Assembly: GCF_003933965.1 (NCBI RefSeq)
Contig: NZ_RSAJ01000015.1
Coordinates: 1-38,300, forward strand
From: Streptomyces sp. RP5T
GTDB lineage: Bacteria; Actinomycetota; Actinomycetes; Streptomycetales; Streptomycetaceae
Direction of reading: 5' to 3'
DNA length: 38,300 nucleotides
Part shown: positions 4,007-38,268 of the stretch, in pieces
How the letters are laid out: each line of letters begins with the position of its first letter
How positions within the stretch are numbered: position 1 is the stretch's first letter
Program-made: the position numbers and the translations under genes
Notes under the pieces: model-generated
Seen by the model: only the letters and a program-made list of their open reading frames with translations
Databases searched by the model: none
Told to the model about the DNA's origin: nothing

Positions 4007-4106
4007 TTTCTCTCCTCCTCCGACTGTGCCGGGCACCCATCACACTGTGTGGAGCCGCGTCCCGAAACCTTACGGCCCCGGGACGCCAAAACGCACCGTC
4101 TGTCTG

Positions 4107-4529: not shown

Positions 4530-4530
4530 A

Positions 4531-7500
4531 CTAACGCTCCTGGTTGTAGGTGCTGCCAGTGCCGAAGCCCTGGCCGTTCGTTTCACTGCCTGCGTTGCGG
4601 CCCCGCTGGACACCGCGGCGCAGGTTGCTCAGCCTGCCCCGGACGTCCTCGGGGGCACGGGAGACCTGTGGGCCTCCCTGGTTGGTGGCTTCGGCGGCTC
4701 CCTCGACCAGGTTGGCCTTGGGTACCCGCCGCGGCAGACCGGAGGAGGTGACCCCGCCCGCCTTGGGCTTCCGGAGCTGGGAGGCCTGCTGCCACCGCGC
4801 GTCGTTGGCCGAGCGCCAGAGGTCGCCGCCGCCGTTGCTCTCCGGCGCTGAGGCCGGCGACTCCTGGGTCGCGTTCCGCGTGCCGTTCGAGCCGTTCGCG
4901 CCGCTCCCGGTGGAGCCACGGCGGGGGAGCCCGGCGTCGGTCAGCTCGTGACCCACGGAGGCGGGGGCCGGCCCCGGACGGTCGAAGCCTACGCGCTCAC
5001 GCTCACTCACGTCAGCGGCCTGCGCAGATTCCGCTTCCGGAGCGTACTGGTCCGGGTAGCCGTTACGGTAACCGTCCGACTGCGGCCAGTCATCCTGGTA
5101 GCGGCGCTCCTCGAAGCCCGAGAAGGTCTCCGGGGCGGCCGCGGGCACCGCCGCGGGCTCCTCCTGGACCGGCTCCGCATAGGAGGGCTCCGGGTAGCCG
5201 CCGCCCTGCGAGAACGTGTCGTTCTGCGGCAGGCCGCCGTTCTGCGCGAAGTACGGCTCCTCGTACGCCGGACGGTTCGGCTCCTCGTACGCCGTCTGCC
5301 GCTGCTCCTCGTACGGCGCCTGCTGCGCCTCCTCGTACGACGTCTGCTGGTCGTAGGCGGCGGGCTGCTGCTCCGGGTAGCCGTTGCGGCTGTTGTCGTA
5401 GCCGGTCTGCTGCTGGGCGTTGTGGTCGAACGCGTCGGTGTACGACGGCTCCGGACCCTGGAGGGCCGGCGGCTCGTCCTGGCCCTGGGCCTCCAGCGCC
5501 GCGCGGCGCTCCTCACGCATCAGGGAGCGGCCGACCGGGTCCAGCTCGCGTATGTCGTCCGGGACCTCGGAGTAGCGGCTGTCGTCGAAGCCGAGCTCCG
5601 CGGCCGTCCGCATGGGCAGACCGTTGTTGAAGTCCTCGCCCTGGTAGTGCTGCTGCTCGGGCATGATCTGCGAGACGGTGAACTCGTCCGCGGCCGGCTG
5701 CTGCTCGCCGCCGCCACCGTGAGTGATCGCGTCGGGCAGCATGACCAGCGAGGTGGTGCCGGCCTGCTCGCCCGAGGGGCGCAGCTGGACCCGGATGCCG
5801 TGCCGGTCGGACAGCCGGCCGACCACGAACAGGCCCATGCGCTGGGAGATCGCGGCGTCCACGGTCGGCGGGTTGGCCAGCTTGTGGTTGATGTCCGCGA
5901 AGTCCTCGGCGGTCAGGCCGATGCCCTTGTCGTGGATCTCGATCATGATGCGGCCGTCGGGCAGCCGGGTCGCGGTGACGCGGACCTTGGTCTGCGGCGA
6001 GGAGAACGTGGTGGCGTTCTCCAGCAGCTCGGCCAGCAGGTGCACGAGGTCGGTGACCGCGCGGCCGTGGATCTCGGCCTCCGGGACGCCGGACAGCTCG
6101 ATGCGCTCGTACTGCTCCACCTCGGAGGAGGCGGCGCGCAGCACGTCGACGAGCGGGACCGGCTGGTCCCAGCGACGGCCGGGCTCCTCGCCGGCGAGGA
6201 CCAGGAGGTTCTCGCCGTTGCGGCGCATACGCGTCGCCAGGTGGTCCAGACGGAAGAGGTTCTCCAGCTGGTCCGGGTCGGCCTCGTTGTTCTCCAGGTC
6301 GGTGATCAGGGTCAGCTGGCCCTCGATCAGCGACTGGTTGCGCCGGGACAGGTTGGTGAAGATCGCGTTGATGTTGCCCCGCAGCAGGGCCTGCTCGGAG
6401 GCGAGCCGGACCGCCTCGCGGTGGACCTGGTCGAAGGCGCGGGCGACCTCGCCGATCTCGTCCTTGGTGGTGATCGGGATCGGGGCGACCCGGGTGTCGA
6501 CCCGGCCGGGGTCGGTGCGCGAGAGCTGGTCGACCAGCATCGGCAGGCGCTGCTCGGCGATGCCGAAGGCGGCGTTGCGCAGCTGGCGCATCGAGCGGGA
6601 CATCTGCCGGGCGACCGCGCCGGCCAGGATGAACGCGAGGAGCAGCGCGACCACGACGGCGGCACCCACGATGAACGCGTCCCGCTTGGCGCTGTCGGCG
6701 ATGCTCGCGGCCTCGTTCACCGCGGTGTCGGCCAGGTCGGTCTCGATCTGGCGGTACGCGTTGTACTTGAGGGTGTTGACCGCCCACCAGTTCTCGGCGG
6801 TGATGCCGTCCTTGGCGAGCGCGTCACGGGCGCTCTTGTCCATGGACTGGAGCTGGGCGATGCCGGAGACCATGTCCACGGGGTTGGACGGCGGCGGGAC
6901 GTAGTTCGGGTTCTTGGCGGCGGCCTCCTTGGCCAGCGCCGCGCCCTCCGTCTGGATCTGCTTCTTCGCGGTGTCGAGCTTCGCCGCGTCGGCCTCGGTG
7001 CCGCCGCCGATGTACTCCTCGACGGCGATGCCCTCCAGGTACGCGTACGAGGAGAGGGCGACCTTCTGGCTGGCGAAGCTGCTCAGCCCCGGACCGGGCT
7101 TGAGCAGCAGGTGCATGCCGATGGAGCGCTGCAGCGACAGGGCCGCCTTGGTGAGCTCGATGGCGTAGACGGTACGGCCGTAGCTCGTGATGTTTCCGGT
7201 GCCGAGGCCGAGCTCGTTGGCGAACTCCGTCAGCGGGTGCGCGACCTGGGTGTAGCCCTCCTCGGTCTTCACACCGGTGAGCTTGGAGGAGGTGTAGGCG
7301 CCGGCGCGCAGTGCCTGGAGGTTCCCCTCACCGTCCCGGAACAGCTGGAGACGGCGCTTGAGGCCCGCCTTCTGCGGCATGTTCTGGGCGGCCTGGTTGA
7401 AGGCGTCGGCGGCCTCGTCGGTCTTCTTGCGGGCGGCGACCACCGTGGCGTTGTTCTGGCCCTCGCCGCTCAGCAGGGGGGCGGCGGTGCTGTCACGCTC

Positions 7501-7818
7501 GTTGTAGAGGGCGTCGGCGTAGCTGAGGGAGGCCCGCACCAGACGCGCGGTGTTCTCCGCGTCCTCGGCCTCGCGCCAGGTGTCGATCGAGCTCTTGACC
7601 TGGAAGCCGCCCATGACGAGGCCGACGATCACGGGTATGAGCAGGATCGCGTTCAGCCGGGTGGGCACCCGCCAGTTGCGCGGGGAGAACCGGCCGCCCC
7701 CGGACGTCGCCGCGGGCGTCGGTTCCGGACCGGACACAGGGGCGGGCGCCGCTCCGCGCGGCGGCGGGGTGAAGTTGCCCCGGGCCGACGGCTCGGGACC
7801 GTTCTTGCTTCGCCTCAC
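4531..7818 (-). CDS. cvnA2: Conservon sensor ATPase CvnA (copy 2): nitrate/nitrite-sensing, HAMP and HATPase domains
   Basis: This 1095-aa membrane sensor resembles a histidine kinase. Order: Pro-rich cytoplasmic N-terminus; TM1 about 54-72; extracellular NIT-type helical domain with Y-N-E-R-D-S near residue 110; TM2 about 382-404; HAMP; a helical dimerisation region with L-D-H-L-A-T-R-M-R-R-N (His about 526); and a GHKL ATPase with N-box E-L-L-E-N-A (Asn601), D-K-G-I-G-L and M-G-L-F-V-V-G-R-L. About 400 residues of low-complexity tail follow, with repeated AYEEP/PYEE units and a conserved basic end (L-P-R-R-V-P-K-A-N-L-V). Whether His526 is phosphorylated is unknown; ATPase activity has been reported for the class. 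The GTG start has GAGAGG 11 nt upstream, as in cvnA1. Confidence 0.93.
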   Translation of the reverse strand: MRRSKNGPEPSARGNFTPPPRGAAPAPVSGPEPTPAATSGGGRFSPRNWRVPTRLNAILLIPVIVGLVMGGFQVKSSIDTWREAEDAENTARLVRASLSYADALYNERDSTAAPLLSGEGQNNATVVAARKKTDEAADAFNQAAQNMPQKAGLKRRLQLFRDGEGNLQALRAGAYTSSKLTGVKTEEGYTQVAHPLTEFANELGLGTGNITSYGRTVYAIELTKAALSLQRSIGMHLLLKPGPGLSSFASQKVALSSYAYLEGIAVEEYIGGGTEADAAKLDTAKKQIQTEGAALAKEAAAKNPNYVPPPSNPVDMVSGIAQLQSMDKSARDALAKDGITAENWWAVNTLKYNAYRQIETDLADTAVNEAASIADSAKRDAFIVGAAVVVALLLAFILAGAVARQMSRSMRQLRNAAFGIAEQRLPMLVDQLSRTDPGRVDTRVAPIPITTKDEIGEVARAFDQVHREAVRLASEQALLRGNINAIFTNLSRRNQSLIEGQLTLITDLENNEADPDQLENLFRLDHLATRMRRNGENLLVLAGEEPGRRWDQPVPLVDVLRAASSEVEQYERIELSGVPEAEIHGRAVTDLVHLLAELLENATTFSSPQTKVRVTATRLPDGRIMIEIHDKGIGLTAEDFADINHKLANPPTVDAAISQRMGLFVVGRLSDRHGIRVQLRPSGEQAGTTSLVMLPDAITHGGGGEQQPAADEFTVSQIMPEQQHYQGEDFNNGLPMRTAAELGFDDSRYSEVPDDIRELDPVGRSLMREERRAALEAQGQDEPPALQGPEPSYTDAFDHNAQQQTGYDNSRNGYPEQQPAAYDQQTSYEEAQQAPYEEQRQTAYEEPNRPAYEEPYFAQNGGLPQNDTFSQGGGYPEPSYAEPVQEEPAAVPAAAPETFSGFEERRYQDDWPQSDGYRNGYPDQYAPEAESAQAADVSERERVGFDRPGPAPASVGHELTDAGLPRRGSTGSGANGSNGTRNATQESPASAPESNGGGDLWRSANDARWQQASQLRKPKAGGVTSSGLPRRVPKANLVEGAAEATNQGGPQVSRAPEDVRGRLSNLRRGVQRGRNAGSETNGQGFGTGSTYNQER
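5256..5350 (-). repeat. Tandem CTCCTCGTACG units encoding the YEE repeats of CvnA2
   Basis: On the plus strand CTCCTCGTACG recurs four to five times at intervals near 27-33 bp. In the coding strand this gives repeated (A/P)-Y-E-E peptides. Such in-frame repeats can expand or contract by slippage. Confidence 0.75.
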
Positions 7819-8220: not shown

Positions 8221-8796
8221 TTACCGCAGACGTGCCATCAGCGCGTGCTCGACCAGCGTGATCAGGGCGCTCTTGGCGTCCGACCGGTGCCGGGCGTCCG
8301 TCGTGATGATGGGTGCGTCCGGCCCGATCTGCAGGGCCTCGCGGACCTCCTCGGGAGCGTACGGCTGGTGCCCGTCGAAGCCGTTCAGGGCCACGACGAA
8401 GGGCAGACCGCTGTTCTCGAAGTAGTCGACCGCGGGGAAGCAGTCGGCCAGGCGCCGGGTGTCGACCAGGACCACCGCGCCGATGGCGCCGCGGACGAGG
8501 TCGTCCCACATGAACCAGAAGCGGTCCTGACCGGGTGTACCGAAGAGGTACAGGATCAGGTCCTGGTCCAGGGTGATACGGCCGAAGTCCATGGCGACCG
8601 TGGTGGTCGTCTTGTCCCCGGTGTGGGTGAGGTCGTCGATGCCGGCCGACGCGGACGTCATCACGGCCTCGGTGCGCAGCGGGTTGATCTCGGAGACCGC
8701 GCCGACGAACGTGGTCTTGCCCACGCCGAAGCCACCCGCCACCACGATCTTCGCGGAGGTGGTGGCCCGCCCCGCGTCAGAGCTTGCGAAGTCCAC
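8221..8796 (-). CDS. cvnD1: Conservon GTP-binding protein CvnD (copy 1)
   Basis: The 191-aa paralogue of cvnD2 has the same P-loop (G-G-F-G-V-G-K-T-T), the same F-G-T-P-G-Q-D switch II and the same N-G-F-D in place of N-K-x-D. It differs mostly at the N-terminus and at a handful of C-terminal positions (for example H-Q-P-Y-A-P-E-E against Q-Q-P-Y-N-P-D-E). It is translationally coupled to cvnC1 by a 20-nt overlap. Bases 8534-8670 are identical to 3179-3315 in cvnD2, including synonymous sites. Role as for cvnD2; the two GTPases may be partly interchangeable (inference). Confidence 0.92.
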   Translation of the reverse strand: MDFASSDAGRATTSAKIVVAGGFGVGKTTFVGAVSEINPLRTEAVMTSASAGIDDLTHTGDKTTTTVAMDFGRITLDQDLILYLFGTPGQDRFWFMWDDLVRGAIGAVVLVDTRRLADCFPAVDYFENSGLPFVVALNGFDGHQPYAPEEVREALQIGPDAPIITTDARHRSDAKSALITLVEHALMARLR

Positions 8797-9175
8797 TGAG
8801 CACCCTTTCGAGCAGCGTCACATCGGGAGCGCCGCCGTTGTTCTCGTCGCCGCCCGGCTGGTGGATGGCCACCAGTCCGGCCTCGGCGAGGTCCGCGACG
8901 AGGATCCTGGCCACCCCGAGCGGCATGGCGAGCAGTGCCGAGACCTCGGCGACCGACTTCACCTCACGGCACAGATGGCAGATGCGCTGGTGCTCGGGGA
9001 GCAGCCCCATCAGCGCCGCCGGGTCGGCCGTCGTGCTGATCAGGGCCTCGATGGCGAGCTGGTAGCGCGGCCGGGTCCGGCCGCCGGTCATCGCGTACGG
9101 ACGTACCAGCGGCTGGTCGCCCTCATCCTCGTACGGCTCCGCGTACGGATCATGAGAGGCGGTGGGCGGGGTCAT
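8777..9175 (-). CDS. cvnC1: Conservon DUF742 protein CvnC (copy 1)
   Basis: This 132-aa DUF742 protein has a GGAGG four bases before its ATG, so the start is firm. The N-terminal leader is only ~22 residues (acidic, P-Y-A-E-P-Y-E-D-E) compared with ~75 in cvnC2. The common domain follows: Q-P-L-V-R-P-Y-A-M-T-G-G-R-T, I-C-H-L-C-R-E-V-K-S with a CxxC pair, and the same L-S-G-L-R-K-L end. Whether the cysteines bind metal is not known. It lies 110 nt after cvnB1 and overlaps cvnD1. Confidence 0.9.
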   Translation of the reverse strand: MTPPTASHDPYAEPYEDEGDQPLVRPYAMTGGRTRPRYQLAIEALISTTADPAALMGLLPEHQRICHLCREVKSVAEVSALLAMPLGVARILVADLAEAGLVAIHQPGGDENNGGAPDVTLLERVLSGLRKL

Positions 9176-9285
9176 GAATCCTCCGGGCGGGACAGCAAGT
9201 CGGTCTGGCTAGCCGTCTGGTGAGGCCGGTGGGGGGATTGTGGCGGCCGGACGGTGATTTGGTGAGACGGGTGGATCCGGTGGGG

Positions 9286-9708
9286 TCAGTGGAGCAGACT
9301 GCCTTGCAGCTCGGCTCGCAGGTCGGGCGTGAGCACGGCTCCCGCACGGTCCACGAGCAGTGCCATCTCATAGCCGACGAGGCCGATGTCGCATTCGGGG
9401 TGGGCGAGCACCGCGAGCGACGAGCCGTCCGAGACGGACATGAGGAAGAGGAATCCCCGCTCCATCTCCACGACGGTCTGGGCGACGCTGCCGCCCTCGA
9501 AGATCCGTGAGGCACCCGCTGTGAGCGAGGTCAGCCCGGACGCGACGGCCGCAAGCTGGTCGGCTCGGTCGCGCGGGAAGCCCTCGGACATCGCCAGAAG
9601 GAGTCCGTCGGCGGACACGACGACGGTGTGGGACACCCCTGGGGTGTTGTCCACGAAGTTGGTGATCAACCAGTTGAGGTTCTGTGCCGCCTGGCTCATC
9701 GGGCTCAA
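9286..9708 (-). CDS. cvnB1: Conservon roadblock/LC7 protein CvnB (copy 1)
   Basis: The 140-aa roadblock/LC7 protein is close to identical to cvnB2 in the core. The frame can begin at a TTG that abuts the cvnA1 stop (TAG-TTG), with AGGAG six bases ahead, or at the ATG three codons later (137 aa, 9697-9699). The SD spacing favours the TTG, family convention the ATG. Either way translation is tightly coupled to cvnA1. Expected role: partner of CvnD1 and the membrane sensor, by analogy with MglB/MglA. Confidence 0.92.
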   Translation of the reverse strand: MSPMSQAAQNLNWLITNFVDNTPGVSHTVVVSADGLLLAMSEGFPRDRADQLAAVASGLTSLTAGASRIFEGGSVAQTVVEMERGFLFLMSVSDGSSLAVLAHPECDIGLVGYEMALLVDRAGAVLTPDLRAELQGSLLH

Positions 9709-12700
9709 CTAACGCTCCTGCTGGTGAGTGGGGTTCGGGAAACTGCCCGTCTGGCCGTTGCCGCCGACCTGACGACCTTGCGCGATACCCCGACGGAGAT
9801 TGGTCAGCCGACCGCGCACGTCGTCAGGCGCACGCGAGACAGCAGGACCGCTTTGGTGCTGTTGCTGCTGAGCCGTACCCGGGACGAGGTTCGCCCTGGG
9901 CACCCGGCGCGGCAGGCCGGAGGTGGTGACACCGCCCGCGGCCGGCTGCCGGACGCGCTCCGCCTGCCGGACGAGGTCGTCGTTCGGCGAGCTGCGCCAG
10001 GCCGCGGAAGCCGCGGGCCGTTGCGGAGCGGCGGCGGAACTCTGGGGGGCCGGAGCCTGCTGCCGCGGCGCCTGAGCGGGGGAGGAGCCGTTGCCGTTGG
10101 CCGACTGCGCCTGTCCCTGCTGCTGGCTGCCGTGGAACCAGTTGGTCTCCAGCGTGTCGTACAGCGGCGTCCGGCCGTCCCCGGGACCCGCGGGCGGCAG
10201 CGCCTCGGGCTCCTGGCGGACCGGCCGCTGCTGCGGACGCGGCGGCACGGGCGGCCGCGGGGCGCCGAAGTCGGCGCCGTTCACCTGGGGGCGCTCGAAC
10301 TGGCCCGTGGACGAGGGGTCCTGACGGCCCGGCAGGGAGTGCTGCCCGGTGGAGCTGCCCTCGTAGCCCGGCATCGCGAACTGACCCGTGGAGCCGTTGT
10401 CGTAGCCCTGCGGGGTCGCGAACTGACCGGTCTGCGGGCCGCCGTTCTGTCCGGGCGGGGTGCCGAAGACGTCCTGGCGTACGTACTGGCCGGTGTTCTG
10501 CGGGTCGTTGGCGGCGGGACGCGGGAACTCGCCCGTGTCCTGCGGGCCGTTGGAGCCCGGCCGCGGGAACTGACCGGTGTGCTGCTGACCGCTCGATCCC
10601 GGCCGCGGGAACTGGCCGGTGTTCTGCGGGGCGTCGAAGTCCGGGCGGGGGAACTCGGAGGTGCTCGCCGGACCCTGGTGCTCCTCGATCCGCGGCATGC
10701 GGGACGTGGCGGCGGGGTCCTGCTCGTCATGGCCGCGCGGGACGTCCAGCGAGGCGCGCGGCACCGGCGGCTGCGCGTTCTCGTCGCTCCAGCTCGGTGT
10801 GCGGGGCTGCTGGTTGCCGCCGGGCAGCTCGGCCCGGGGACCACCGCGGCCCGGCAGCTGCGGCCGACGGCGCCGGCCCTGCGGCTCGGGGGCCTGGCCC
10901 GCGCCCGGGGCCTGCGGCTGCGAAGGTACGGCACCCCGGGAGCCGAAGGCGTCCTGGCCACCGAAGGCGTCCTGAGCGCTGAAGGCGTCCTGGCCCGGAC
11001 CGTTGGTGCCCGCGGCCTGCAGACCCTGCGGGGCACCCGGCGCCTGGCCGCCGAAGCCGGCACCCGCCGGAGCGGGCCGGCCCTGCGGAGGCATACCCGG
11101 ACCCTGCGGTCCGCGCTGTCCGCCCGGCGCACCGGAGCGGGGGCCCTGACCACTGCCGGGCAGCGCGGCCCGCGGTCCCTGACCGGCGTTCAGCCGTCCG
11201 CCCGAGGGGGCGCCGGCGCCGAGGGCGCCACCGCCGGGACCACCGGGCGCACCGCCGAGAGCGCCGCCGCCCTGGCCGTTGCCGCCGCCCCGACGGGCCG
11301 CGGCCACACCGGCGGCGGCCTGCGCCGCCGCGGGAGCGCCGGGGGCACCCTGTCCGGGCTTGGGCTGGGGCTTCTTGCCGCCCTGGGCGACGTCGACGGG
11401 CAGCATGACCAGCGCGGTCGTACCACCGGAGTCGGACGGGCGCAGCTGGATGCGGATGCCGTGGCGCTGGGACAGCCGGCCGACCACGAACAGACCCATG
11501 CGGCGGGAGACGGAGACGTCCACGGTGGGCGGCGAGGCGAGCCGCTCGTTGATCGCCGCGAGGTCCTCGGGGGAGAGGCCGATGCCGGTGTCGTGGATCT
11601 CGATCAGCACGCGGCCGTCGGGCAGCGCGTGACCGGTGACCTTGACCTTGGTCTGCGGGGAGGAGAACGAGGTCGCGTTCTCCAGCAGCTCGGCGAGCAG
11701 GTGCACGAGGTCGTTGACCACGCGGCCGGCCACTTCGGTGGTCGGCACGGCGGCCAGCTCGATGCGCTCGTACTGCTCCACCTCGGAGGCGGCGGCGCGG
11801 AGCACGTCGACCAGCGGGACCGGACGGGTCCAGCGGCGGCCGGGCTCCTCACCCGCGAGGACGAGGAGGTTCTCGCCGTTACGGCGCATGCGGGTCGCGA
11901 GGTGGTCGAGCTTGAACAGCGAGGACAGCTGGTCCGGGTCGGCCTCCCGGGACTCCAGCTCGGAGATGAGCGAGAGCTGACGCTGGATGAGGCCCTGGGA
12001 GCGGCGCGAGAGGTTGGTGAACATCGCGTTGACGTTGCCCCGCAGCAGGGCCTGCTCGGCGGCGAGGCGGACCGCCTCGCGGTGCACGTCGTCGAAGGCC
12101 GCGGCCACGCGGCCGATCTCGTCCCGGGAGTGCACACCGACCGACTCCACGGACGTGTCGACGTCCTGCGGGTCGGACTCGGACAGCTGCTTGACCAGCT
12201 CGGGCAGGCGGTCCTGGGCGACCTTGGTGGCGGTCTCCTGCAGGCGGCGCAGCGAGCGGATCATGGACCGGGCGACGACGAAGGCGCCGACCAGGGAGAC
12301 ACCGAGCACGATCAGGATCAGCGCACCGGCGATGATCGCGTCGCGCTCGGTGGCGCTGCGCAGCTCGCGGGCCTTCTGCTCCATGTCCTCGAGCAGCGTG
12401 TGCTCGATGCGGCCCATCTCCAGGATCTTGGTCGAGCTGTCGTCGACCCAGTCCTTGTAGGAACGCCGGTCCAGGTCGGCCAGACCCTCCGGGCGGCCGA
12501 AGGCACGGCCGGCGTACTGGTCGGCGGCCTCGATGGTGGAGCTGCCGTCCTCGATGGGCTTGAGGAGTTCCTCGGCGCCGTCGTCGCCGTAGATGCTCCG
12601 GAAGCTGTTGAGTTCGGACTCCTCGCTCTCCAGGGCGCCCTGGGCGTACAGCCGGTCGTTCTCGGTGAGCTTGCCCACGGTCGTCTTGTTGGCCGGAAGG

Positions 12701-13533
12701 GCCGCGGCGAGGATCGCGCGCTGGATGGAGGCGTACTCCTTGGCGGAGGAGAAGGCCGCCAGGGCACGCGTGCGCTGGATCATGTCCGGGTTGCTGGTGG
12801 CCTCGGCCATGTCCTGGGAGAGGTCCAGCAGGTGGGTGATCAGCCGGTGGTAGGACTCCACCGTCTGGGTCGCGTTGCCCTGGGTCTCGTAGGCGTCGCT
12901 GCGGATCTTGCTGAGCGTGTCCAGGTCGCGGACCAGGCCGACGAGGCTGTCGCGGACACCCTGGAGGTTGCCGTCCTTGCTGGAGGTGTCGATCTCCTCG
13001 GCGGCGTTGATGAAGTTCGTCGCGGCCCGGTCCGTCTTGCTGCGGAAGCCCTTGACCGTGATGTTGCTCGCCGTGGAGTTGTGCGCCAGCGGGCCCGCCG
13101 ACTGGTCGCGCTCCTCCTGGAGGGCGGCCGCCAGCTCGGTGGCCTGCTTGGTCATCTCCGTCAGCAGCTTCATGTTGTCGAGCTGCTGGATGTCGTCCAT
13201 GGAGTCGTTGATGCGCAGCGCGCCCAGCGAGGTGGCCGCCACGACGGGGAGCGCGAGCAGCGACACCAGGCGCGTGGAGATGCGCCAGTTGCGCAGGGCT
13301 ATGCGCGACCCGGGGCCGCTCGGGCCCTTCGGGGGCTTCACCGTCGGCGTGACGTCCGGGCCCGAGGACGCCGACGTGCCGAGGCGACCGGGGCCGGAAC
13401 CACCGTCGGCCGACGGTGCCGGGCCCGGGTTCTGGGCGTGCTGGGGGGAGGAACTGCCGACATTGGGGCCAGTCCCGCCGTGCCGCTCCGGCTCGGCCGA
13501 AGCGCTGCCATCCCTCTTGAAACGTCCCTGCAC
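9709..13533 (-). CDS. cvnA1: Conservon sensor ATPase CvnA (copy 1): nitrate/nitrite-sensing, HAMP and HATPase domains
   Basis: The GTG at 13531-13533 gives 1274 aa. I choose it because AGAGG sits 11 nt upstream, exactly as before cvnA2; the open frame runs back to 13785 but reads as non-coding there. Order: Pro/Gly-rich N-terminus; TM1 about 88-107; helical NIT-type sensor with Q-E-E-R-D-Q-S-A-G; TM2 about 400-423; HAMP; L-D-H-L-A-T-R-M-R-R-N (His about 544); and GHKL ATPase with E-L-L-E-N-A (Asn619), D-T-G-I-G-L and M-G-L-F-V-V-G. The ~550-residue tail is Gly/Pro/Gln-rich with TGQFPRP-type repeats and ends in the same L-P-R-R-V-P-R-A-N-L-V segment as CvnA2. Signal unknown; nitrate sensing is only a domain name here. 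Confidence 0.93.
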   Translation of the reverse strand: MQGRFKRDGSASAEPERHGGTGPNVGSSSPQHAQNPGPAPSADGGSGPGRLGTSASSGPDVTPTVKPPKGPSGPGSRIALRNWRISTRLVSLLALPVVAATSLGALRINDSMDDIQQLDNMKLLTEMTKQATELAAALQEERDQSAGPLAHNSTASNITVKGFRSKTDRAATNFINAAEEIDTSSKDGNLQGVRDSLVGLVRDLDTLSKIRSDAYETQGNATQTVESYHRLITHLLDLSQDMAEATSNPDMIQRTRALAAFSSAKEYASIQRAILAAALPANKTTVGKLTENDRLYAQGALESEESELNSFRSIYGDDGAEELLKPIEDGSSTIEAADQYAGRAFGRPEGLADLDRRSYKDWVDDSSTKILEMGRIEHTLLEDMEQKARELRSATERDAIIAGALILIVLGVSLVGAFVVARSMIRSLRRLQETATKVAQDRLPELVKQLSESDPQDVDTSVESVGVHSRDEIGRVAAAFDDVHREAVRLAAEQALLRGNVNAMFTNLSRRSQGLIQRQLSLISELESREADPDQLSSLFKLDHLATRMRRNGENLLVLAGEEPGRRWTRPVPLVDVLRAAASEVEQYERIELAAVPTTEVAGRVVNDLVHLLAELLENATSFSSPQTKVKVTGHALPDGRVLIEIHDTGIGLSPEDLAAINERLASPPTVDVSVSRRMGLFVVGRLSQRHGIRIQLRPSDSGGTTALVMLPVDVAQGGKKPQPKPGQGAPGAPAAAQAAAGVAAARRGGGNGQGGGALGGAPGGPGGGALGAGAPSGGRLNAGQGPRAALPGSGQGPRSGAPGGQRGPQGPGMPPQGRPAPAGAGFGGQAPGAPQGLQAAGTNGPGQDAFSAQDAFGGQDAFGSRGAVPSQPQAPGAGQAPEPQGRRRRPQLPGRGGPRAELPGGNQQPRTPSWSDENAQPPVPRASLDVPRGHDEQDPAATSRMPRIEEHQGPASTSEFPRPDFDAPQNTGQFPRPGSSGQQHTGQFPRPGSNGPQDTGEFPRPAANDPQNTGQYVRQDVFGTPPGQNGGPQTGQFATPQGYDNGSTGQFAMPGYEGSSTGQHSLPGRQDPSSTGQFERPQVNGADFGAPRPPVPPRPQQRPVRQEPEALPPAGPGDGRTPLYDTLETNWFHGSQQQGQAQSANGNGSSPAQAPRQQAPAPQSSAAAPQRPAASAAWRSSPNDDLVRQAERVRQPAAGGVTTSGLPRRVPRANLVPGTAQQQQHQSGPAVSRAPDDVRGRLTNLRRGIAQGRQVGGNGQTGSFPNPTHQQER
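10288..10666 (-). repeat. Degenerate tandem repeats in the cvnA1 tail (TGQFPRP-type)
   Basis: Translated on the minus strand, the motif T-G-(Q/E)-(F/Y/H)-x-x-P recurs about eight times at 13-20 residue spacing, between E-F-P-R-P-D-F-D and T-G-Q-F-E-R-P. The units differ, so they are old rather than freshly copied. Confidence 0.8.
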
Positions 13534-14029
13534 TAGCGTCGCAACCTCTGGACCAGGCGCTCCTCCGCAGAACGGCGGAGCACGGTGTCGGCGTTGTGGG
13601 GAGCGCCCTGAATACGCACCCCGGATGGTCGTGAGTGACCGGCGCTGGCTCCCCCTTCTCACCGCCGCTCGGCGCTTCTCTGCGCCCCCTGTGCGCCGGT
13701 TCGATCCCGCGGCGGTCCGTGGAATTCCAGCACAGTGCAGGATCTCCAACAAGGTATGAGGGTCAGACCGTGACCTACGTGACACCTCGTGGTGGCCGGG
13801 TCACGGGGCGTGGAAAGCTTTCTCGTCCATATCGGACATAGGTCCGCGAGTCTCCCCCAGGGGGCTGGTGTCCCAGTCGCCATGATCAGGAGCGGAATGA
13901 GGGCTTCAGGGGGTCAATGTCCGTTTCGTTAGGGTGGGTTGCGGCCGTGAATTGTCCGGTTTGCCGCTAGGTCAGTGAGCAAACTCACACGCAGATCACG
14001 GGGTCTTCGTGAGTTCGGAGGGGAATGGC
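13534..14029. other. 496-bp divergent region between cvnA1 and the small gene at 14030
   Basis: I see no convincing gene. It should hold the cvn1 promoter (minus) and the promoter of the small plus-strand gene. GTCC-ATATC-GGAC around 13826-13838 and GTGAG-CAAA-CTCAC at 13975-13988 are the clearest symmetric sequences. Several open frames cross the region but their third positions are not G/C-biased. Confidence 0.5.
13975..13988. promoter_or_regulatory. Palindrome GTGAG-CAAA-CTCAC
   Basis: It is a perfect 5-bp inverted repeat with a 4-nt centre, 41 bp before the ATG at 14030. It could be a transcription factor site or a small 5'-UTR hairpin. A further GTGAG half-site lies at about 14008. No binding protein can be named. 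Confidence 0.4.
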
Positions 14030-31524: not shown

Positions 31525-31780
31525 GGGTCACTCCAAAGACTTCAGATGCACTTACGGTCGGATCCCGGCAAGCCTGGATCGAGATCGTAGGATCAGAGAT
31601 CGGAGTGGCGCTGCCAGGGGAATGGCCCGATCGGGATCGGGCAACCGGAGCAGCATACAACGACTGCGCCAGTAGAACGAAACTACCATGGCTGATCAGG
31701 CACTCGCTCCCGGCCCTCTTCCGGCCGGCACCCGCCCGGGGTCTACGCTGCGTCCAGTCCAGCAGCCCGAGGAGGCGCAG

Positions 31781-33493
31781 GTGGCGCAGGTGCCGCAGAC
31801 ATTCTTCGATGCTCTCGCGGTGCGCACCTGGTGCGGTCTGGCGCTGCGCGCGCTGGGCCGGGCGCGCGAGGAGATCGACGCGATCAACGTCTACCCGGTC
31901 GCCGACGGGGACACCGGCACCAACCTGTATCTGACGGCGGAGTCGGCGGCCGCGGCCGTGGAGGCGGTCTTCGAGGCCCATGACGCCCACGGCTCGGGGA
32001 AACCGGCACTCGCCGACGCCGTGCGCGCGATGGCGCACGGCGCCCTCATAGGCGCCCGCGGCAACTCGGGCACGATCCTCGCCCAGCTGCTGCGCGGCAT
32101 GGCCCAGGTGCTCGCCGCCGACGGTGAGACGACTCACACGGACGGCGAGGGGCTCGGGCTCGCCCTGCGGCACGCGGCCGACTCCGCCCGCCATGCCGTC
32201 GCCCACCCCGTCGAGGGCACGGTCCTCACGGTCGCCTCCGCCGCCGCCGACGCGGCCCGGAAGGCGGCGGGCGACTGCGGGACCGTCGCCCGGGCCGCCT
32301 ACGACGGGGCGCGCGCCGCCCTCGCCGCGACGCCCGGCCAGCTCGCCGTCCTGGAGCGGGCCGGAGTGGTGGACGCCGGCGGGCGCGGGCTGGTCGCGGT
32401 GCTCGGGGCGCTGGTGGAGACGTTCACGGGAGAGGTGCCCAGGCCGGTGCCGGTCGTGAGCGACCCGGAGCACGCGCGCGTGGCGGGCGACACGGACCCG
32501 AGCGCGGCCGCGGGCATCGCCGACGTCCTCGCCGCCTCCCCCGAGGAGTGCGCCGACGCCCCGGGCACGGGCCCCGCCTTCGAGGTGATCTACCTCCTGG
32601 AGGCCGACGACACCGCCGTCGAGCGGCTGCGGCAGCGGCTCGACCGACTCGGGGACTCCCTCGTGGTGGTCGGCGGCGACGGCCTGTGGAACGTCCATGT
32701 GCACGTCGACGACGCGGGCGCCGCCGTGGAGGCGGGCGTCGAGGCCGGACGGCCGTACCGGATCCGCATCACGCACTTCGGCCTCGGTGACGTGCACACC
32801 ACCGGAGCCGAACGCCCGCCCCGCGAGCGCGCCCAGCGGGCCGTCGTCGCCGTGGTGCCCGGCGAGGGCCTGGCCAAGCTGTACACCGAGGCCGGGGCGA
32901 CCGCCGTGCTCGCCCGCCCCGGGGAGCCGCCCGCGAGCGGTGAGCTCGTCGAGGCCGTACGACGGGCCCACGCGCGCGAGGTGGTGCTGCTGCCCAACGA
33001 CGCCGACCTGCGCCACACCGCGGCCGCCGCGGCCGAGCAGGCCCGCACGGAGGGGATCAGGGTCGCGCTGATCCCGACCCGCTCCGCGGTCCAGGGCATC
33101 GCCGCGCTCGCCGTGCACGAACCGGAACGCCGGTTCGACGAGGACGTCGTCCAGATGACCTCGGCGGCCGGCGCGACCCGCTACGCCGAGGTCGCCGTCG
33201 CCGAACGCCAGTCCTGGACCATGGCCGGCATCTGCCAGGCCGGTGACGTCCTCGGGCTCATCGACGGGGACGTGGCCGTCATCGGCGCGGACGTCACCGG
33301 CACCGCCGAGACCGTCCTGGACCGCATGCTCTCGGCCGGCGGCGAGCTGGTCACCCTCGTCCTCGGCGACGAGGCCCCCGAGACCGTGGCCGAGCACCTG
33401 GAGGCGCGCGTACGGGAGTCGTACCTCGCCGTGGACACGGTGGTGTACCGGGGCGGGCGACAGGGCGCCGTGCTGCTCATCGGGGTCGAGTAG
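31781..33493 (+). CDS. DAK2-domain kinase, FakA-like
   Basis: The GTG at 31781 (570 aa) is preferred because GGAGG lies five bases upstream; the frame is open to an ATG at 31688 but that part is Pro-rich and likely leader. Domains: N-terminal DAK2 with N-V-Y-P-V-A-D-G-D-T-G-T-N (residues 36-48) and G-A-R-G-N-S-G-T-I-L (91-100); a middle domain; and a C-terminal FakA-type domain with D-G-D-V-A-V-I-G-A-D-V. FakA proteins phosphorylate fatty acids bound to FakB/DegV carriers; no degV gene is nearby. The name dihydroxyacetone kinase is therefore probably wrong for this protein. Only 12 bp separate it from the convergent TPR gene. Confidence 0.85.
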   Translation: MAQVPQTFFDALAVRTWCGLALRALGRAREEIDAINVYPVADGDTGTNLYLTAESAAAAVEAVFEAHDAHGSGKPALADAVRAMAHGALIGARGNSGTILAQLLRGMAQVLAADGETTHTDGEGLGLALRHAADSARHAVAHPVEGTVLTVASAAADAARKAAGDCGTVARAAYDGARAALAATPGQLAVLERAGVVDAGGRGLVAVLGALVETFTGEVPRPVPVVSDPEHARVAGDTDPSAAAGIADVLAASPEECADAPGTGPAFEVIYLLEADDTAVERLRQRLDRLGDSLVVVGGDGLWNVHVHVDDAGAAVEAGVEAGRPYRIRITHFGLGDVHTTGAERPPRERAQRAVVAVVPGEGLAKLYTEAGATAVLARPGEPPASGELVEAVRRAHAREVVLLPNDADLRHTAAAAAEQARTEGIRVALIPTRSAVQGIAALAVHEPERRFDEDVVQMTSAAGATRYAEVAVAERQSWTMAGICQAGDVLGLIDGDVAVIGADVTGTAETVLDRMLSAGGELVTLVLGDEAPETVAEHLEARVRESYLAVDTVVYRGGRQGAVLLIGVE

Positions 33494-33505: not shown

Positions 33506-36433
33506 TCAGCTGTCCTGTTCCTCCATGAGGCCCAGCAGCTGCTCCGCCTCGGTCCGCCGCGCCTGCGCCACCTCGTCGCCCGCGCCGTCCGTGTTGCCGT
33601 AGGCGTCGAGCACCGCACGCGCGCGTGCCGCCGCCTCCGCCGGCCGGCCCAGGTCGGCCGCCAGCCGGCCCGCCGCGAGTTCCGCACCGGTGCGGGCGTC
33701 CAGGGCGCCGTCCCCGAGCGAGGCGAACACGACGACCGCCTCCACCACCTGGGTCAGCGCCTCCTCCAGCACCGCCCGGATCGTGTCGTCCTCGGCGTCC
33801 TCGGGCACGGCACGGGCGAGCAGGTCACCGAACTGCCGGTGCGTGTGCCCGAGTTCGCCGACCAGTCGCTGCCGCGCCTCCTCGTCGGCGCGCGCGTCCC
33901 CCAGCGCGGTCTCGCACGCGCGGACCGCGTCCGCCATCAACTGCCGTGCCGTGTCCGCCCCGTCCCGCGCGCGCAGCGCGAGCCAGGCGCGGGCCCGCAG
34001 GGAGCGCACCAGGCCGTGCACATGGCCGATCTCACGCCACAGCGCGCCCGCGCGCGCGTACGCCTGGTCGGCCTCGGCGGCCAGCCCCGCGGCTCCGAGG
34101 GACTCGGCGGCGAGGTGGGCGAGCGTGGCGTGGTCGTGCTGCTCGGGCCAGTGCCGGGCGATCTCGGCGGCCTGCAACCGCCGTTCGGCCGCCTCCCGGT
34201 GCTCGCCCAGCTCGGCCAGACAGTCGCCGAGCCACCACTGCGTCTGTACGACCGCCCCCTCGCCGTGCCGCTCCGCGCTCAGGTCGGGCAGCGCCGACTC
34301 CAGCACCTCCGCGGCCTCGGCCCACCTGCCCAGGCCGAGCAGGAACCCGCCCAGCTGGTGCCGGGCCAGGGCACCCAGCGTCTGCCCCTCCCCGGCCTCG
34401 TCGGCCCAGTGAGCGGCCTCCAGGGCGTGCTCGGCAGCCTCCTCGGCGAGCCCGCGGCCGCCGACCACCTCGGCGAGCTGGAGATGCAGCTGGGCCCGTC
34501 CGACCGGCTCCAGGTGGGAACCGCCGTGCTCCAGCGCCGCCCGCAGCGCCCGCTCCGTCCCGTCCAGGTCGCCCAGGTGGTGCAGGAGCCCGGCGAGCCG
34601 CGCCTCGTACTCCACCGCGAACCACGGCAGCCCCGCGTCCACGAACGCCGTCGTGGCCCGCGAGAACAGCTCGGCCGCCGCCGGGAGCTCCCCGGTCCGC
34701 GCGGCCAGTTCCGCCAGCATCGCCTGCGCCTCGGCGACCCGCGCGGCGAGCCGCACGTCGTCCCCGGCCCGGCCCTCGACGAGGGCGAGCACCTCCCGCA
34801 CGGCCGACCCGGCCTCGCTCAGGCACGCCTCGTCGTCGCTCTCGTGCACCCGTCGCATCAGGATCCGCGCCCGGGACATCAGCACCGACGCCGTCTGGAG
34901 CACACCCGTGCCGTCCGCGGAGTGGAGCGCGAGGACCTCGTCGTACGGCCCGGCGACCGCCGCGAGGGCCGCGTCCACCCCGCCCGCCAGCGCGCGGACG
35001 TACGCGGCACGCGCGTGTGCGGCCAGCGCCTCGCCCGGGTCGCCCGCCTCCGCGTACAACTCGGCGGCCCGCTCGAACAGTTCGAGACCCTCGGGCCCCC
35101 GGTCCATCGCCTCGTGGTCGGCGATCTCCGCCCGGTCGCGCGGGTCCAGCTCGACCCCCTCGGCGGCCCGCGCGACCGCCGCCCACGCCTCCACGGCGTT
35201 CGGGCGGAGGGTGTCCGACAGCCGCCGGGCCTCGGCGACCAGTGCGGGCAGATCGGGCTCCTCGGCGGTCGCGGGCGCCGCGGGCACCGGCACGGGAGCG
35301 GCGACGGTCCGGACCGCCCGCACCCCCAGCGGCAGCCGCTCCACCAGCGGCCGCTGCGCCATACGCGCGCGTACCTGTTCGCCGACGTGGGCCGTGCCGT
35401 TGCGCTCGTCGAAGCGGGCGGCCAGCGCGAGGGCCTCCCCGCGCGCGTGGGCGGCGAGTGCGGCCGCGGTCCAGGACCGGCCCGCGGGTCCCGGCACCGG
35501 CCGCTCGCCCAGGCCCAGCACGGTCAGCCGGTCCATCAGCAGGGCCACCACGGCCGTGAAGTCCAGCCTGCTGCGCGGATGGCCGTCGTCCGTGAAGTAC
35601 GCGGGACGCTCCGCGAGCAGCTCCAGCGCGCGTGCCTCGTTGCCGCTGAGCGCGCAGAACTCGACGTGGTCCGCGTAGGCGCCGCGCATGCTCTCCATGG
35701 ACCGCACGAGCCGGAAGCCCCGCAGATGGTTGGCGCGCGCCTCGTCGAGGCGGCCCAGCCGCAGCAAGGGCTTGAGGGAGGACGCCAGGACCGCGTGCGG
35801 CTCGTGGGCGCAGCTGAACTCGCCCGCCAGGACCGGCGCCCACAGCTCCAGTGCCTCCGCGTCCCGCCCGCGCTGCGACTGCCACCAGCCCTGCTCGTGC
35901 AGCTCGCAGGCGTGGCAGTCGGCCATGGCGTCCCGGTCGGCGGCCAGCCACGCGGCGTACGCGCGCTCGGCCCGCTCCAGGTCCCCGACGTGCGCGGCCA
36001 CGCTGTACTCGGCGCTGCGCACGGCCCGTTCGGAGTGCCCCGCCAGCCGGTAGCGGTGCTCCATCTCGCCGAGCCACTTCTCCATCGCGGCGAGCGGGAT
36101 GTGCGGCTGGTCGAGCATGCCGCTCGTCATCCACTTGAAGACCCAGTGCAGGGCGTGCGTCTCGTACTCGTCGAAGTCCTCGGGGTGCTCGTCCCACAGG
36201 CGCAGCAGCCGCGCGAAGGGGACGAACATCTTGGCCTTCTCGGAGCTGTAGTTGTAGACCTTCAGCTGGTGTCCGAGCGCCTCGATCACCGCGAGCGGGA
36301 TGTTCAGCTTCTCCGCCTCGGCGAGCAGCTGCTCCGCGCGCGCGTTGCGGGCGGGACCCTCCGGTTCCTCGGCGTTCTCCGCCATCGCCCGGCGCAGCGC
36401 GTCGAAGGCCGCGTTCCCGTCGACCGAGCTCAT
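33506..36433 (-). CDS. Large TPR-like helical repeat protein encoded with an HSP90 homologue
   Basis: The ATG at 36431-36433 overlaps the HSP90 stop (ATGA) and has GGAGG upstream; it gives 975 aa. The chain is nearly all helical, with paired-helix repeats spaced 34-40 residues, for example A-Y-A-A-W-L-A-A-D-R-D, E-L-W-A-P-V-L-A-G-E-F, L-R-A-A-L-E-H-G-G and A-E-A-A-E-V-L-E-S-A-L. The N-terminal ~150 residues (L-K-V-Y-N-Y-S-S-E-K-A-K-M-F-V-P-F) are less repetitive and end in W-V-F-K-W-M-T-S-G-M. There is no enzyme motif, signal peptide or membrane segment. By analogy with eukaryotic Hsp90-TPR co-chaperones it may bind or deliver clients to the adjacent HSP90; that is inference. Confidence 0.8.
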   Translation of the reverse strand: MSSVDGNAAFDALRRAMAENAEEPEGPARNARAEQLLAEAEKLNIPLAVIEALGHQLKVYNYSSEKAKMFVPFARLLRLWDEHPEDFDEYETHALHWVFKWMTSGMLDQPHIPLAAMEKWLGEMEHRYRLAGHSERAVRSAEYSVAAHVGDLERAERAYAAWLAADRDAMADCHACELHEQGWWQSQRGRDAEALELWAPVLAGEFSCAHEPHAVLASSLKPLLRLGRLDEARANHLRGFRLVRSMESMRGAYADHVEFCALSGNEARALELLAERPAYFTDDGHPRSRLDFTAVVALLMDRLTVLGLGERPVPGPAGRSWTAAALAAHARGEALALAARFDERNGTAHVGEQVRARMAQRPLVERLPLGVRAVRTVAAPVPVPAAPATAEEPDLPALVAEARRLSDTLRPNAVEAWAAVARAAEGVELDPRDRAEIADHEAMDRGPEGLELFERAAELYAEAGDPGEALAAHARAAYVRALAGGVDAALAAVAGPYDEVLALHSADGTGVLQTASVLMSRARILMRRVHESDDEACLSEAGSAVREVLALVEGRAGDDVRLAARVAEAQAMLAELAARTGELPAAAELFSRATTAFVDAGLPWFAVEYEARLAGLLHHLGDLDGTERALRAALEHGGSHLEPVGRAQLHLQLAEVVGGRGLAEEAAEHALEAAHWADEAGEGQTLGALARHQLGGFLLGLGRWAEAAEVLESALPDLSAERHGEGAVVQTQWWLGDCLAELGEHREAAERRLQAAEIARHWPEQHDHATLAHLAAESLGAAGLAAEADQAYARAGALWREIGHVHGLVRSLRARAWLALRARDGADTARQLMADAVRACETALGDARADEEARQRLVGELGHTHRQFGDLLARAVPEDAEDDTIRAVLEEALTQVVEAVVVFASLGDGALDARTGAELAAGRLAADLGRPAEAAARARAVLDAYGNTDGAGDEVAQARRTEAEQLLGLMEEQDS

Positions 36434-38268
36434 CCGCGGTCCTCCTCGCCGTTCGTGGCCCACTCCAGCAGACCTATGAAGGCCCGGTTCAGCAGCGCCG
36501 AGTCCGCGGGCCGCAGGGGCCGCTGGGCCATCAGCAGCGCCTGCCCGTAGAGCGACTCGGTCGCGGTGCCCATCAGCTCCGGATCGCCAAGCGAGCCGAT
36601 CCGCCGTACCAGCGGGTTGAGATGGTTCAGCACGAGACGCGCGCGTGGGGCGCTCCCGCGCAGCGAGCCGAGGATGCCCGCCCACAGGTCGTCCGCCCCT
36701 TCCTCGGCCTCCGCCCGCGCCTGTTCGTGCCGGGCGTCCCGGTCGTCCAGGTGCAGCGCGGGCACGGACAGCGGCCGGAAGGCCCGCAGGACCACGTCAC
36801 AGCCCAGCGGGTCGAGCCTGGCCCGCGCGGCCGCCAGGAAGCCGGACAGCGCCAGCTCCTCGGCCGGGTCGACCAGGTCCATGTGGGCGGTGACGGTGTC
36901 CGCGTCCAGCTCGGTGACGACGGTCCCGGGCCGCACCGAGGGCAGCGCCTCGACCAGGTCGCTGTCGTAGGTGTAGCCGCCGTTGACCACCCCGACGCCC
37001 TGCGCGGAGGCGATCGGCGCGACCTGCCGGTACTCCTCGACGGTCCGCGTGAAGTGCACCACCGGGTGCCGCCGCGCGAACTCCTCCAGCGACAGCCGCC
37101 CGTCGGTCGTCTCGAACGGCAGCCAGGGCAGCATCGTGCGCAGCATGTCCCTGTCGTGCCGCGCGAGCGACTTCACGCCCAGGTGGTGCACGGACAGGAA
37201 CGCCGCGAGCCGCTCCGGGTCCCCGGCGGCGAGCCCGGTCAGCCAGGACCGGATCCGCTCCCCGAGGGTCTCCCGTACGGCCGCCAGCGTCTCGTCCTCG
37301 TACAGCGACTCGCGCGAGGCCGTGGGCCGCAGGCTGTCGGTGTCCAGGACGCAGCGCACGAAGAACGCCCAGTCCGGCAGCAGCTGTTCGGCCCGCTCGG
37401 TCAGCAGCATGCCCTTGAGGTGCACGCGATGGGTGGCCCGCTGGGCGGGGCTGACCGCCGAGGGAAGGACGTACGCCACGCCCCGGATCCCGGCCAGCGG
37501 CACGTTCAGTTCGATCGAGTCCAGCGGGGTGAAGCCGAACAGCTCGTGACAGTGCCGGGCCAGGGCCACCCTGCGGGTGGCGGGGGAGGGGTAGGGCCGG
37601 TCCCAGGGCGCGGGCAGATCGGTGACCGCCTCGTCGCCGACCCGGACGTCGTACGGCAGCAGCGCACCGAAGTCCCGGGCGAGCCGGAGGACCCGCTCGG
37701 GCGCGAGCCACTCGCCGGCCCCCGCCCGCGCCACCAGATGGACCGTGGTCCCCGGTTCCGGACGGGCGTCGTGGGGCAGCGTCCGCACCAGGTACGAGCC
37801 GTCGTCGCTCGCCGTCCACTCGACGGGCGGCGCGTCCGGCGTACGGGCGCTGCGGCTGACCACACGGATCCGCTCGGCCACCACGAAACAGGCGAGCAGG
37901 CCGATGCCGAACTGCCCGAGGAAGTCGGAGCGCACCTCCTGAAGCCCCTCGGCGCGCTTGGAGCTGCGCCCGATGGTGGCCAGCAGGTCGTGCACGTCCG
38001 ACTCGGTGAGCCCGACCCCGGAGTCCTCGACGCGCAGGGTGCCGTCCTCGGCGTGCAACCGCACCCGGGCCGGGGCGTCCGGCTGCTCGGCCCGCCGGGC
38101 CGTGATCGCGTCCACCGCGTTCTGCAGCAGTTCGCGGAGATAGACCTTGGGGCTGGAGTAGAGGTGATGGGAGAGGAGGTCCACCAGACCGCGCAGGTCG
38201 ACCTGGAACGTATGAGGCTGCTGAGGCACCTGGGGTGTCTGGGATGACTGTGAGGTCTGGGAATCCAT
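36430..38268 (-). CDS. HSP90/HtpG-family chaperone-like ATPase, divergent
   Basis: The 612-aa protein has the GHKL ATP site of Hsp90: L-R-E-L-L-Q-N-A-V-D-A-I (Glu46, Asn50, Asp53), E-D-S-G-V-G-L (Asp82) and L-G-Q-F-G-I-G-L-L-A-C-F-V-V (117-130). The middle domain retains V-H-L-K-G-M-L-L and the catalytic-loop Arg in T-A-S-R-E-S-L (Arg319). It departs from canonical HtpG at several fixed positions (Q-N-A-V-D for S-N-A-S-D; L-L-A-C-F for F-Y-S-A-F), and the C-terminal dimerisation third is poorly recognisable. The first 18 residues are Gln/Ser/Thr/Pro-rich. It is the first gene of the operon; its promoter lies at or beyond the window edge. Chaperone function is likely but untested. Confidence 0.85.
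   Translation of the reverse strand: MDSQTSQSSQTPQVPQQPHTFQVDLRGLVDLLSHHLYSSPKVYLRELLQNAVDAITARRAEQPDAPARVRLHAEDGTLRVEDSGVGLTESDVHDLLATIGRSSKRAEGLQEVRSDFLGQFGIGLLACFVVAERIRVVSRSARTPDAPPVEWTASDDGSYLVRTLPHDARPEPGTTVHLVARAGAGEWLAPERVLRLARDFGALLPYDVRVGDEAVTDLPAPWDRPYPSPATRRVALARHCHELFGFTPLDSIELNVPLAGIRGVAYVLPSAVSPAQRATHRVHLKGMLLTERAEQLLPDWAFFVRCVLDTDSLRPTASRESLYEDETLAAVRETLGERIRSWLTGLAAGDPERLAAFLSVHHLGVKSLARHDRDMLRTMLPWLPFETTDGRLSLEEFARRHPVVHFTRTVEEYRQVAPIASAQGVGVVNGGYTYDSDLVEALPSVRPGTVVTELDADTVTAHMDLVDPAEELALSGFLAAARARLDPLGCDVVLRAFRPLSVPALHLDDRDARHEQARAEAEEGADDLWAGILGSLRGSAPRARLVLNHLNPLVRRIGSLGDPELMGTATESLYGQALLMAQRPLRPADSALLNRAFIGLLEWATNGEEDRG

Follow-up and report, generated by a model that had tools for sequence, protein, structure and literature searches.

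We report a conserved two-gene system, found in a contig of Streptomyces sp. RP5T, in which a divergent HSP90-family protein is encoded together with a large all-helical protein, hereafter the partner. The stretch analysed (the window) is the complete contig C414 of a draft genome, 38,300 bases long. The gene pair is real and general: the two families lie side by side in at least nine phyla, and we found no earlier description of them as a pair in the open-access literature, which omits most subscription papers. We suggest, with a probability of roughly 0.6, that the products of the two genes form an obligate two-component chaperone, in which the partner would contact a non-canonical HSP90 and serve it as dedicated co-chaperone or client adaptor.

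The two genes share an ATGA stop/start overlap, as a first-pass annotation of the window had noticed (Table 1), and the overlap is not peculiar to this contig. Four-nucleotide overlaps of this type recur in 44 of the 95 HSP90-partner pairs measured, and a further 12 have a one-nucleotide stop/start overlap, giving 56 of 95 for both types together. The 1059-amino-acid partner frame in the list of open reading frames (ORFs) is an upstream extension in the same frame as the 975-amino-acid ORF. Because the contig stops 32 bases upstream of the HSP90 start, the HSP90 promoter region is unreadable in the window.

Co-occurrence of the two families

We determined the distribution of both families in 61 genomes of the window's genus, counting matches to NF010683 above cut-off as HSP90 and matches to a core profile (A5) at E<=1e-10 as partner. 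Each family has 44 loci in 38 genomes, and the genome sets are identical, with 38 genomes carrying both and 23 carrying neither; all 44 HSP90 loci and all 44 partner loci are adjacent to one another on the same strand (Fisher p for co-occurrence 2.7e-17, a value that overstates independence, since the genomes are related). Two NF010683 fragments below cut-off were left out, one at a contig edge (G028:C587, 230 bits) and one covering positions 3-150 (G000:C1147, 242 bits), and an HSP90 in two pieces, one of them above cut-off (G010), was counted once. The whole 975-amino-acid query matched 41 of the 61 genomes; G004, G015 and G055 match only from position 380, in the tetratricopeptide repeat (TPR) tail, and were excluded as partners. 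Two pairs are carried by 6 of the 38 genomes, the window's among them. The second pair of the window's genome is probably split (G000:C419:5-1177 and G000:C1147:22301-22750): HSP90 model positions 3-150 lie on C1147 and 209-600 on C419, and C1147 probably holds the front of the C419 copy.

A second sample comprised 119 genomes of the order of G376, which appears Paenibacillus-like by its matches. The HSP90 type is present in 37 of these genomes, and 37 of 37 have an adjacent partner; the lowest whole match scores 641.5 bits and the next best 160.8, and a locus in two pieces (G605, 371.8 and 294 bits) was counted as one. Extra partner copies occur in two genomes, and in G557 the partner is degenerate, carrying two stops, and an HSP90 of the NF010683 type is absent. 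No intact partner without an NF010683-type HSP90 was found in the 61 and 119 genomes, though 116 of the 119 have some HSP90 match. The two families, suspected from the window to work together, are thus tied in both samples, and do not occur independently in most genomes.

To gauge breadth we scanned 84,980 species genomes with an HSP90 alignment that had Paenibacillus first and took the best 80 of 586 confirmed places, a sample that therefore leans to that family side. The partner is present at 73 of these 80 loci, and at 70 it is encoded on the HSP90 strand and begins between -60 and +400 bases from the HSP90 stop; at L122 it lies just upstream of the HSP90, and at L089 on the opposite strand. 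Of the seven loci without a partner, three are truncated, the contig ending no more than 170 bases from the HSP90 end, and the genomes of all four others encode a partner at another place. Adjacent partners were found in at least nine phyla: Actinomycetota, Bacillota, Planctomycetota, Myxococcota, Acidobacteriota, Bacteroidota, Deinococcota, Pseudomonadota and Thermodesulfobacteriota. The spread is patchy: one phylum sample gave 8 of 246 genomes at E<=1e-100, and in another phylum 3 of 199 genomes, the sample centre (G307) among them, carry the partner.

Neighbourhoods of canonical HtpG served as control. No partner was found in 20 of them (19 of 10 kilobases and one of 6.3, from 25 genus genomes with a canonical HtpG match) even at E<10, with an HSP90 detected in all 20. 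Nor is the pair linked to canonical HtpG across the genus: HtpG occurs in 25, the NF010683-type HSP90 in 38 and both in 13 of the 61 genomes (p = 0.19; the HtpG genome list was compiled by hand from profile matches). Around the best 80 of 586 loci the commonest gene clusters are the HSP90 (72 loci) and the partner (71), followed by ABC-transporter (10), histidine-kinase-like (9) and response-regulator-like (7) clusters (names by eye), and no third gene family is widely shared beside the pair.

Architecture of the HSP90 and the partner

The HSP90 of the window is divergent, as the first-pass annotation had judged, scoring 861.7 bits against NF010683/PRK14083 'HSP90 family protein' (curated cut-off 455) and 171.6 bits against the canonical HtpG equivalog NF003555 (cut-off 371). 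In a 49-row tree, for which the tree program warns of long branches meeting, 38 HSP90s of the NF010683 type form a single clade (100/99), 8 canonical HtpGs of the window's genus form a separate group (100/100), and HSP90-like proteins of Pseudomonas, Xanthomonas and Pseudanabaena form a weak separate group (90/64). For four of the 38 clade members (L082, L098, L111 and L113) the partner gene lies at another place in the genome. The GHKL ATPase residues E46, N50, D82, G84, G86, G118, G121 and G123 are invariant in an alignment of 41 rows, and these intact residues argue for a working HSP90. R319 aligns with the SRE of TRAP1, and we take it to be the equivalent of the HSP90 catalytic arginine. 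An AlphaFold2 model (predicted local distance difference test, pLDDT, 88.5; predicted template-modelling score, pTM, 0.81) resembles full-length TRAP1, Hsc82 and HtpG. The top Foldseek match of the model is TRAP1 (7exp_B, E 4.1e-32, 638 columns, template-modelling scores 0.65/0.66, root-mean-square deviation 13.1), TRAP1 is the closest Protein Data Bank sequence (E 2.4e-33), and model and Foldseek support a full-length architecture of N-terminal, middle and C-terminal domains. We conclude that the protein is probably an ATP-dependent three-domain chaperone, with predicted ATPase activity and presumably dimeric. It has the fold and ATPase residues of canonical bacterial HtpG, but differs from it in profile score and clade, and in that HtpG loci are without a partner (0/20).

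An earlier survey sorted HTPGs into three groups, Actinobacteria being represented in groups A and C, and assigned the two S. coelicolor proteins, of 638 and 615 amino acids, to different groups (Chen et al. 2006, PMC1525184). The window HSP90 is most likely of the second S. coelicolor kind, in Group C; the main text of that survey does not contain the term 'TPR', and its passages on these HTPGs mention no partner.

The window's partner has no match in NCBIfam and one weak Pfam match, to TPR_12 (20.5 bits, cut-off 30.1). For partner cores, NCBIfam matches were absent from the window core and three others, and Pfam TPR matches were weak, one of them barely above cut-off (Listeria, 26.1 vs 25.7 bits). 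The AlphaFold2 model of the 975 residues is nearly all helix (mean pLDDT 95.2, pTM 0.89), in which the core helices run to residue 358 and a linker of lower confidence leads to the TPR superhelix that starts at 395. By structure comparison the tail resembles the repeats of LGN, Ctr9, Ski3 and OGT, and residues 602-956 superpose on LGN 4wne_A (Z 25.3, root-mean-square deviation 5.9, 316 aligned), in a comparison that covered residues 404-975, which identifies the tail as a TPR fold. The initial description of a giant TPR-like protein thus holds for the tail, but the conserved partner is an N-terminal helical core of about 350 residues, and the long TPR arm was seen only in actinobacteria. The first ~350 residues are homologous to whole Listeria proteins of 324 and 320 amino acids and to a whole Paenibacillus protein of 353, each encoded directly after the same HSP90 type. 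Long partners (~880 amino acids and more) occur in Actinomycetota only, and those elsewhere are mostly of 320-400 (best 80 of 586 loci).

The core carries a candidate metal site. Among 84 partner cores, C173 is present in 74, C176 in 73 and C208 in 73; the triple is complete in 73, and of the 11 exceptions 10 are without all three and one keeps the first only, 9 of the 11 coming from loci with more than one partner copy. A fourth ligand is not fixed, H213 being present in 38 of the 84. All three cysteines share one end of a single helical hairpin, as judged from helix positions in predicted secondary structure and not from distances, and this placement suggests a metal site.

Loci of Listeria, Myroides and the Ruminococcus type combine a single HSP90 with two to four partners in tandem. 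In Ruminococcus/Oscillospiraceae-type loci (L103:6519-8786, plus strand; also L119, L121 and L124) there is another protein with a partner core, 756-780 amino acids long, and the copy of L103, the one scanned, has DUF4026 domains. The first Listeria partner (L048:9791-10765) is probably lmo0941 by gene order. In the passages concerned, lmo0941 is described as hypothetical and as showing signs of selection in neuroinvasive strains (PMC6901971), and lmo0942/lmo0941 are mentioned without a chaperone role (PMC3534079, PMC6901971).

Table 1. Positions in the window of the HSP90-partner pair, its features and the adjoining fakA-like gene (aa, amino acids)
Feature	Position	Strand	Remarks
HSP90-family protein gene	36430-38268	minus	612 aa, NF010683/PRK14083 type, three-domain
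HSP90 N-terminal ATPase domain	37609-38220	minus	~residues 17-220, limits approximate
R319, SRE arginine of HSP90 middle domain	37312-37314	minus	invariant in 41 aligned rows
Stop/start overlap ATGA of HSP90 and partner genes	36430-36433	minus	partner ATG 36433-36431, HSP90 TGA 36432-36430
Partner protein gene	33506-36433	minus	975 aa, all-helical; ORF taken from overlapping ATG
Partner core, residues 1-360	35354-36433	minus	common to whole partners, mostly 320-400 aa, in other phyla
C173, C176, C208 (DCxACE ... C)	35810-35917	minus	candidate metal site, metal binding putative
FDxRN motif, F341-N345	35399-35413	minus	R344 in 82/84, N345 in 83/84 cores
TPR superhelix, residues 395-975 (~580 aa)	33509-35251	minus	tail this long in actinobacterial partners only, among loci scanned
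fakA-like/DAK2 gene	31688-33493	plus	TIGR03599 YloV, 449.8 bits (cut-off 396.1); left edge of insertion site

A proposed two-component chaperone and its alternatives

Pairing, core homology, predicted folds and conservation were computed directly, and it is on these that we base a proposal for function. The mutual dependence of the two families, the overlap of their genes, their matched divergence and the lack of a third shared gene fit a two-protein machine. In such a machine the ~350-residue core, which contains the three cysteines and the FDxRN motif, would be the part acting with the HSP90, in a physical complex and perhaps by modulating its ATPase cycle; the actinobacterial TPR superhelix would have been added to this core, and probably captures clients or further proteins; and the stop/start overlap may couple translation, keeping the two proteins in step. 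Because a single HSP90 can be accompanied by several diverged partners, an adaptor fits better than a fixed enzyme subunit.

Several observations weigh against this proposal. Pairwise distances among the HSP90s correlate with those among the partners (Mantel r 0.906 over 94 pairs, the largest of 2000 shuffles reaching 0.18), but such agreement is likewise expected from the shared descent of any stable operon. The core profile found no partner in G028, the genome of the below-cut-off HSP90 fragment at a contig edge. An EEVD-like C-terminal tail is present in 0 of 108 HSP90 ends, so the eukaryotic MEEVD-TPR clamp is not the contact. CIRCE, HAIR and CtsR-like boxes were found in 0 of 107 HSP90 upstream regions at the mismatch limits used (CIRCE <=4, HAIR 3, CtsR 2; shuffles also 0), and there is thus no sign of classical heat-shock control. 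A gene pair of P. aeruginosa and X. vasicola, an HSP90-like ATPase gene followed by a 764/774-amino-acid gene with weak TPR matches, is similar in layout, but its HSP90-like protein sits on a separate branch, and the core profile had no match at E<10 to the Pseudomonas/Xanthomonas partner in L052-L054 (hhalign against the core: 19% probability, E 0.0012). We take the P. aeruginosa pair to be PA1068/PA1069. PA1069 is reported to be lower and htpG higher after heat (PMC4957987); the 'PA1068' of PMC9995270 was rejected as a gene mention, being a strain name there.

Could the partner instead be the sole dedicated client, the HSP90 only folding or holding it and the partner doing the work? Near one-to-one co-occurrence, the overlap in 56 of 95 pairs, and the duplication and diversification of the partner at some loci where the HSP90 stays single would all suit such an arrangement. 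Yet a chaperone kept over nine phyla for one client would in our judgement be unusual, specific motifs (DCxxC...C and FDxRN) are among the best-conserved parts of the partner, and the partner is modelled as a confident helical solenoid, which alone is no proof of easy folding; we consider the single-client arrangement unlikely. We think it improbable, too, that the pair is a machine assembling one metal-dependent or multi-subunit target with a metal held at the cysteine site: the three cysteines are kept together in 73 of 84 cores, are jointly missing in 10 of the 11 others and appear to share one end of a hairpin, but no conserved target gene lies beside the pair at the best 80 of 586 loci, and the fourth ligand varies.

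The first-pass annotation had also raised a signalling or defence module, in which the HSP90 ATPase and its helical partner would detect stress or phage and trigger an effector. In keeping with this are the patchy spread (38 of 61 genus genomes, 8 of 246 in the phylum sample), the different sites of the Streptomyces-type clades, copies on megaplasmids, and a distant Pseudanabaena HSP90-like protein that has a TIR-like region (E 0.001) and is encoded next to a TIR gene, but no PADLOC model covers the HSP90 or the partner. The partner had no PADLOC match at E<=1, and the HSP90 had partial N-terminal ATPase-region matches to 8 families, including REase_II and, as the best, TmtA (35.6 bits, residues 22-139, against a model of 1302 positions). 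No effector gene recurs beside the best 80 of 586 loci, and no PADLOC family exceeds 3 matches at E<=1e-10 in a set of 130 genes that directly flank the loci (25 of 58 families listed; a descriptive count without a control set), which fits 3 protein kinases identified there by Pfam. This flanking set comprised the first gene on each side of the 80 loci, with genes of <90 or >700 amino acids excluded and simple gene calls, and went from 131 to 130 when one gene next to the L122 upstream partner was dropped. Viral contigs gave four partial matches of ~106-197 query residues and no full-length relative. No link to defence islands was seen in this count, and we regard a defence role as quite unlikely.

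The two-component chaperone thus remains our preferred reading. It resembles the eukaryotic alliance of Hsp90 with TPR co-chaperones (Hop/Sti1, FKBP51/52, PP5) in pairing an ATP-driven HSP90 with a helical protein whose tail has a TPR fold. It is unlike that alliance in its HSP90, which is without an EEVD tail, in the shared part of its partner, a separate core with weak TPR matches, and in that the partner is co-encoded and found with one HSP90 clade only. More tentatively, and at slightly less than even odds, we propose that this HSP90 clade has, over at least nine phyla, an obligate co-chaperone from an undescribed metal-binding helical family (DCxxC...C, FDxRN) that acts without an EEVD clamp and whose client range is set by TPR arms or tandem copies.

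Passages of earlier papers state that no obligate co-chaperone has been identified in bacteria (PMC3708813, 2013) and none for E. coli HtpG (PMC4428384, 2014), and the HtpG and bacterial passages of a 2024 review mention no bacterial co-chaperone (PMC11687934). If our proposal is right, the partner would be the first obligate co-chaperone of a bacterial HSP90, and bacteria may then have a dedicated HSP90 helper, a trait usually deemed eukaryotic. The co-encoded pair would offer a simple two-protein system for asking why some HSP90s need co-chaperones, whether the alliance of HSP90 and helper arose repeatedly, and what role the widespread second HSP90 plays. The partner core also provides a family definition for proteins so far annotated as hypothetical.

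A distant HSP90-like protein of 877 amino acids is encoded on a Pseudanabaena plasmid (L052:8926-11559, plus strand), near a TIR gene and a TPR gene; its TIR-like region, near the C-terminus, matches CAP12-PCTIR_TIR at E 0.001, below the family cut-off.

Insertion site and neighbouring genes

In the window the partner gene converges with a fakA-like gene, with 12 bases between them. In S. coelicolor recG follows this gene, so the pair had been suspected of being an insertion, and for its clade (A) this proved correct. Seven of the eight fetched clade-A loci are flanked by fakA and recG, the identity of RecG being confirmed by NCBIfam, and where genus genomes have no pair here, recG comes next after fakA in the same orientation and nothing matching the HSP90 or partner intervenes (16 of 16 examined; match gap <=100 bases in 14, 398 in L178 and 656 in L175). 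We conclude from the empty junctions and flanked loci that the pair was inserted there in this clade. Neither fakA nor recG was seen in the fetched stretches of the eighth clade-A locus (L034), of a clade-A-like megaplasmid copy (L051) or of the clade B and C loci (L036-L047, L049, L050).

Other features of these neighbourhoods were recorded. The RecG of one locus (L030:12440-15721, plus strand) has 1093 amino acids against the usual ~745; an insert that follows its GSGK motif resembles an intein by eye. Just upstream of the clade B HSP90, on the same strand, seven loci (L039-L043, L049, L050) have a gene for a protein of ~316-337 amino acids (cluster c3), with no Pfam match at E<=0.1 in two members, TPR_14 at E 0.72 in a third and no NCBIfam match in the one tested. 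The clade C pair is preceded in four loci (L044-L047) by a gene of one cluster, the member scanned being an RNA 2'-phosphotransferase. Elsewhere in the window two adjacent four-gene sets lie on the minus strand (2866-7818 and 8221-13785), each with a NIT/HATPase sensor kinase, a roadblock protein, a DUF742 protein and a small ATP/GTP-binding protein (7 of the 8 genes by Pfam, the eighth by clustering), sets for which 'conservon' is presumably the appropriate name.

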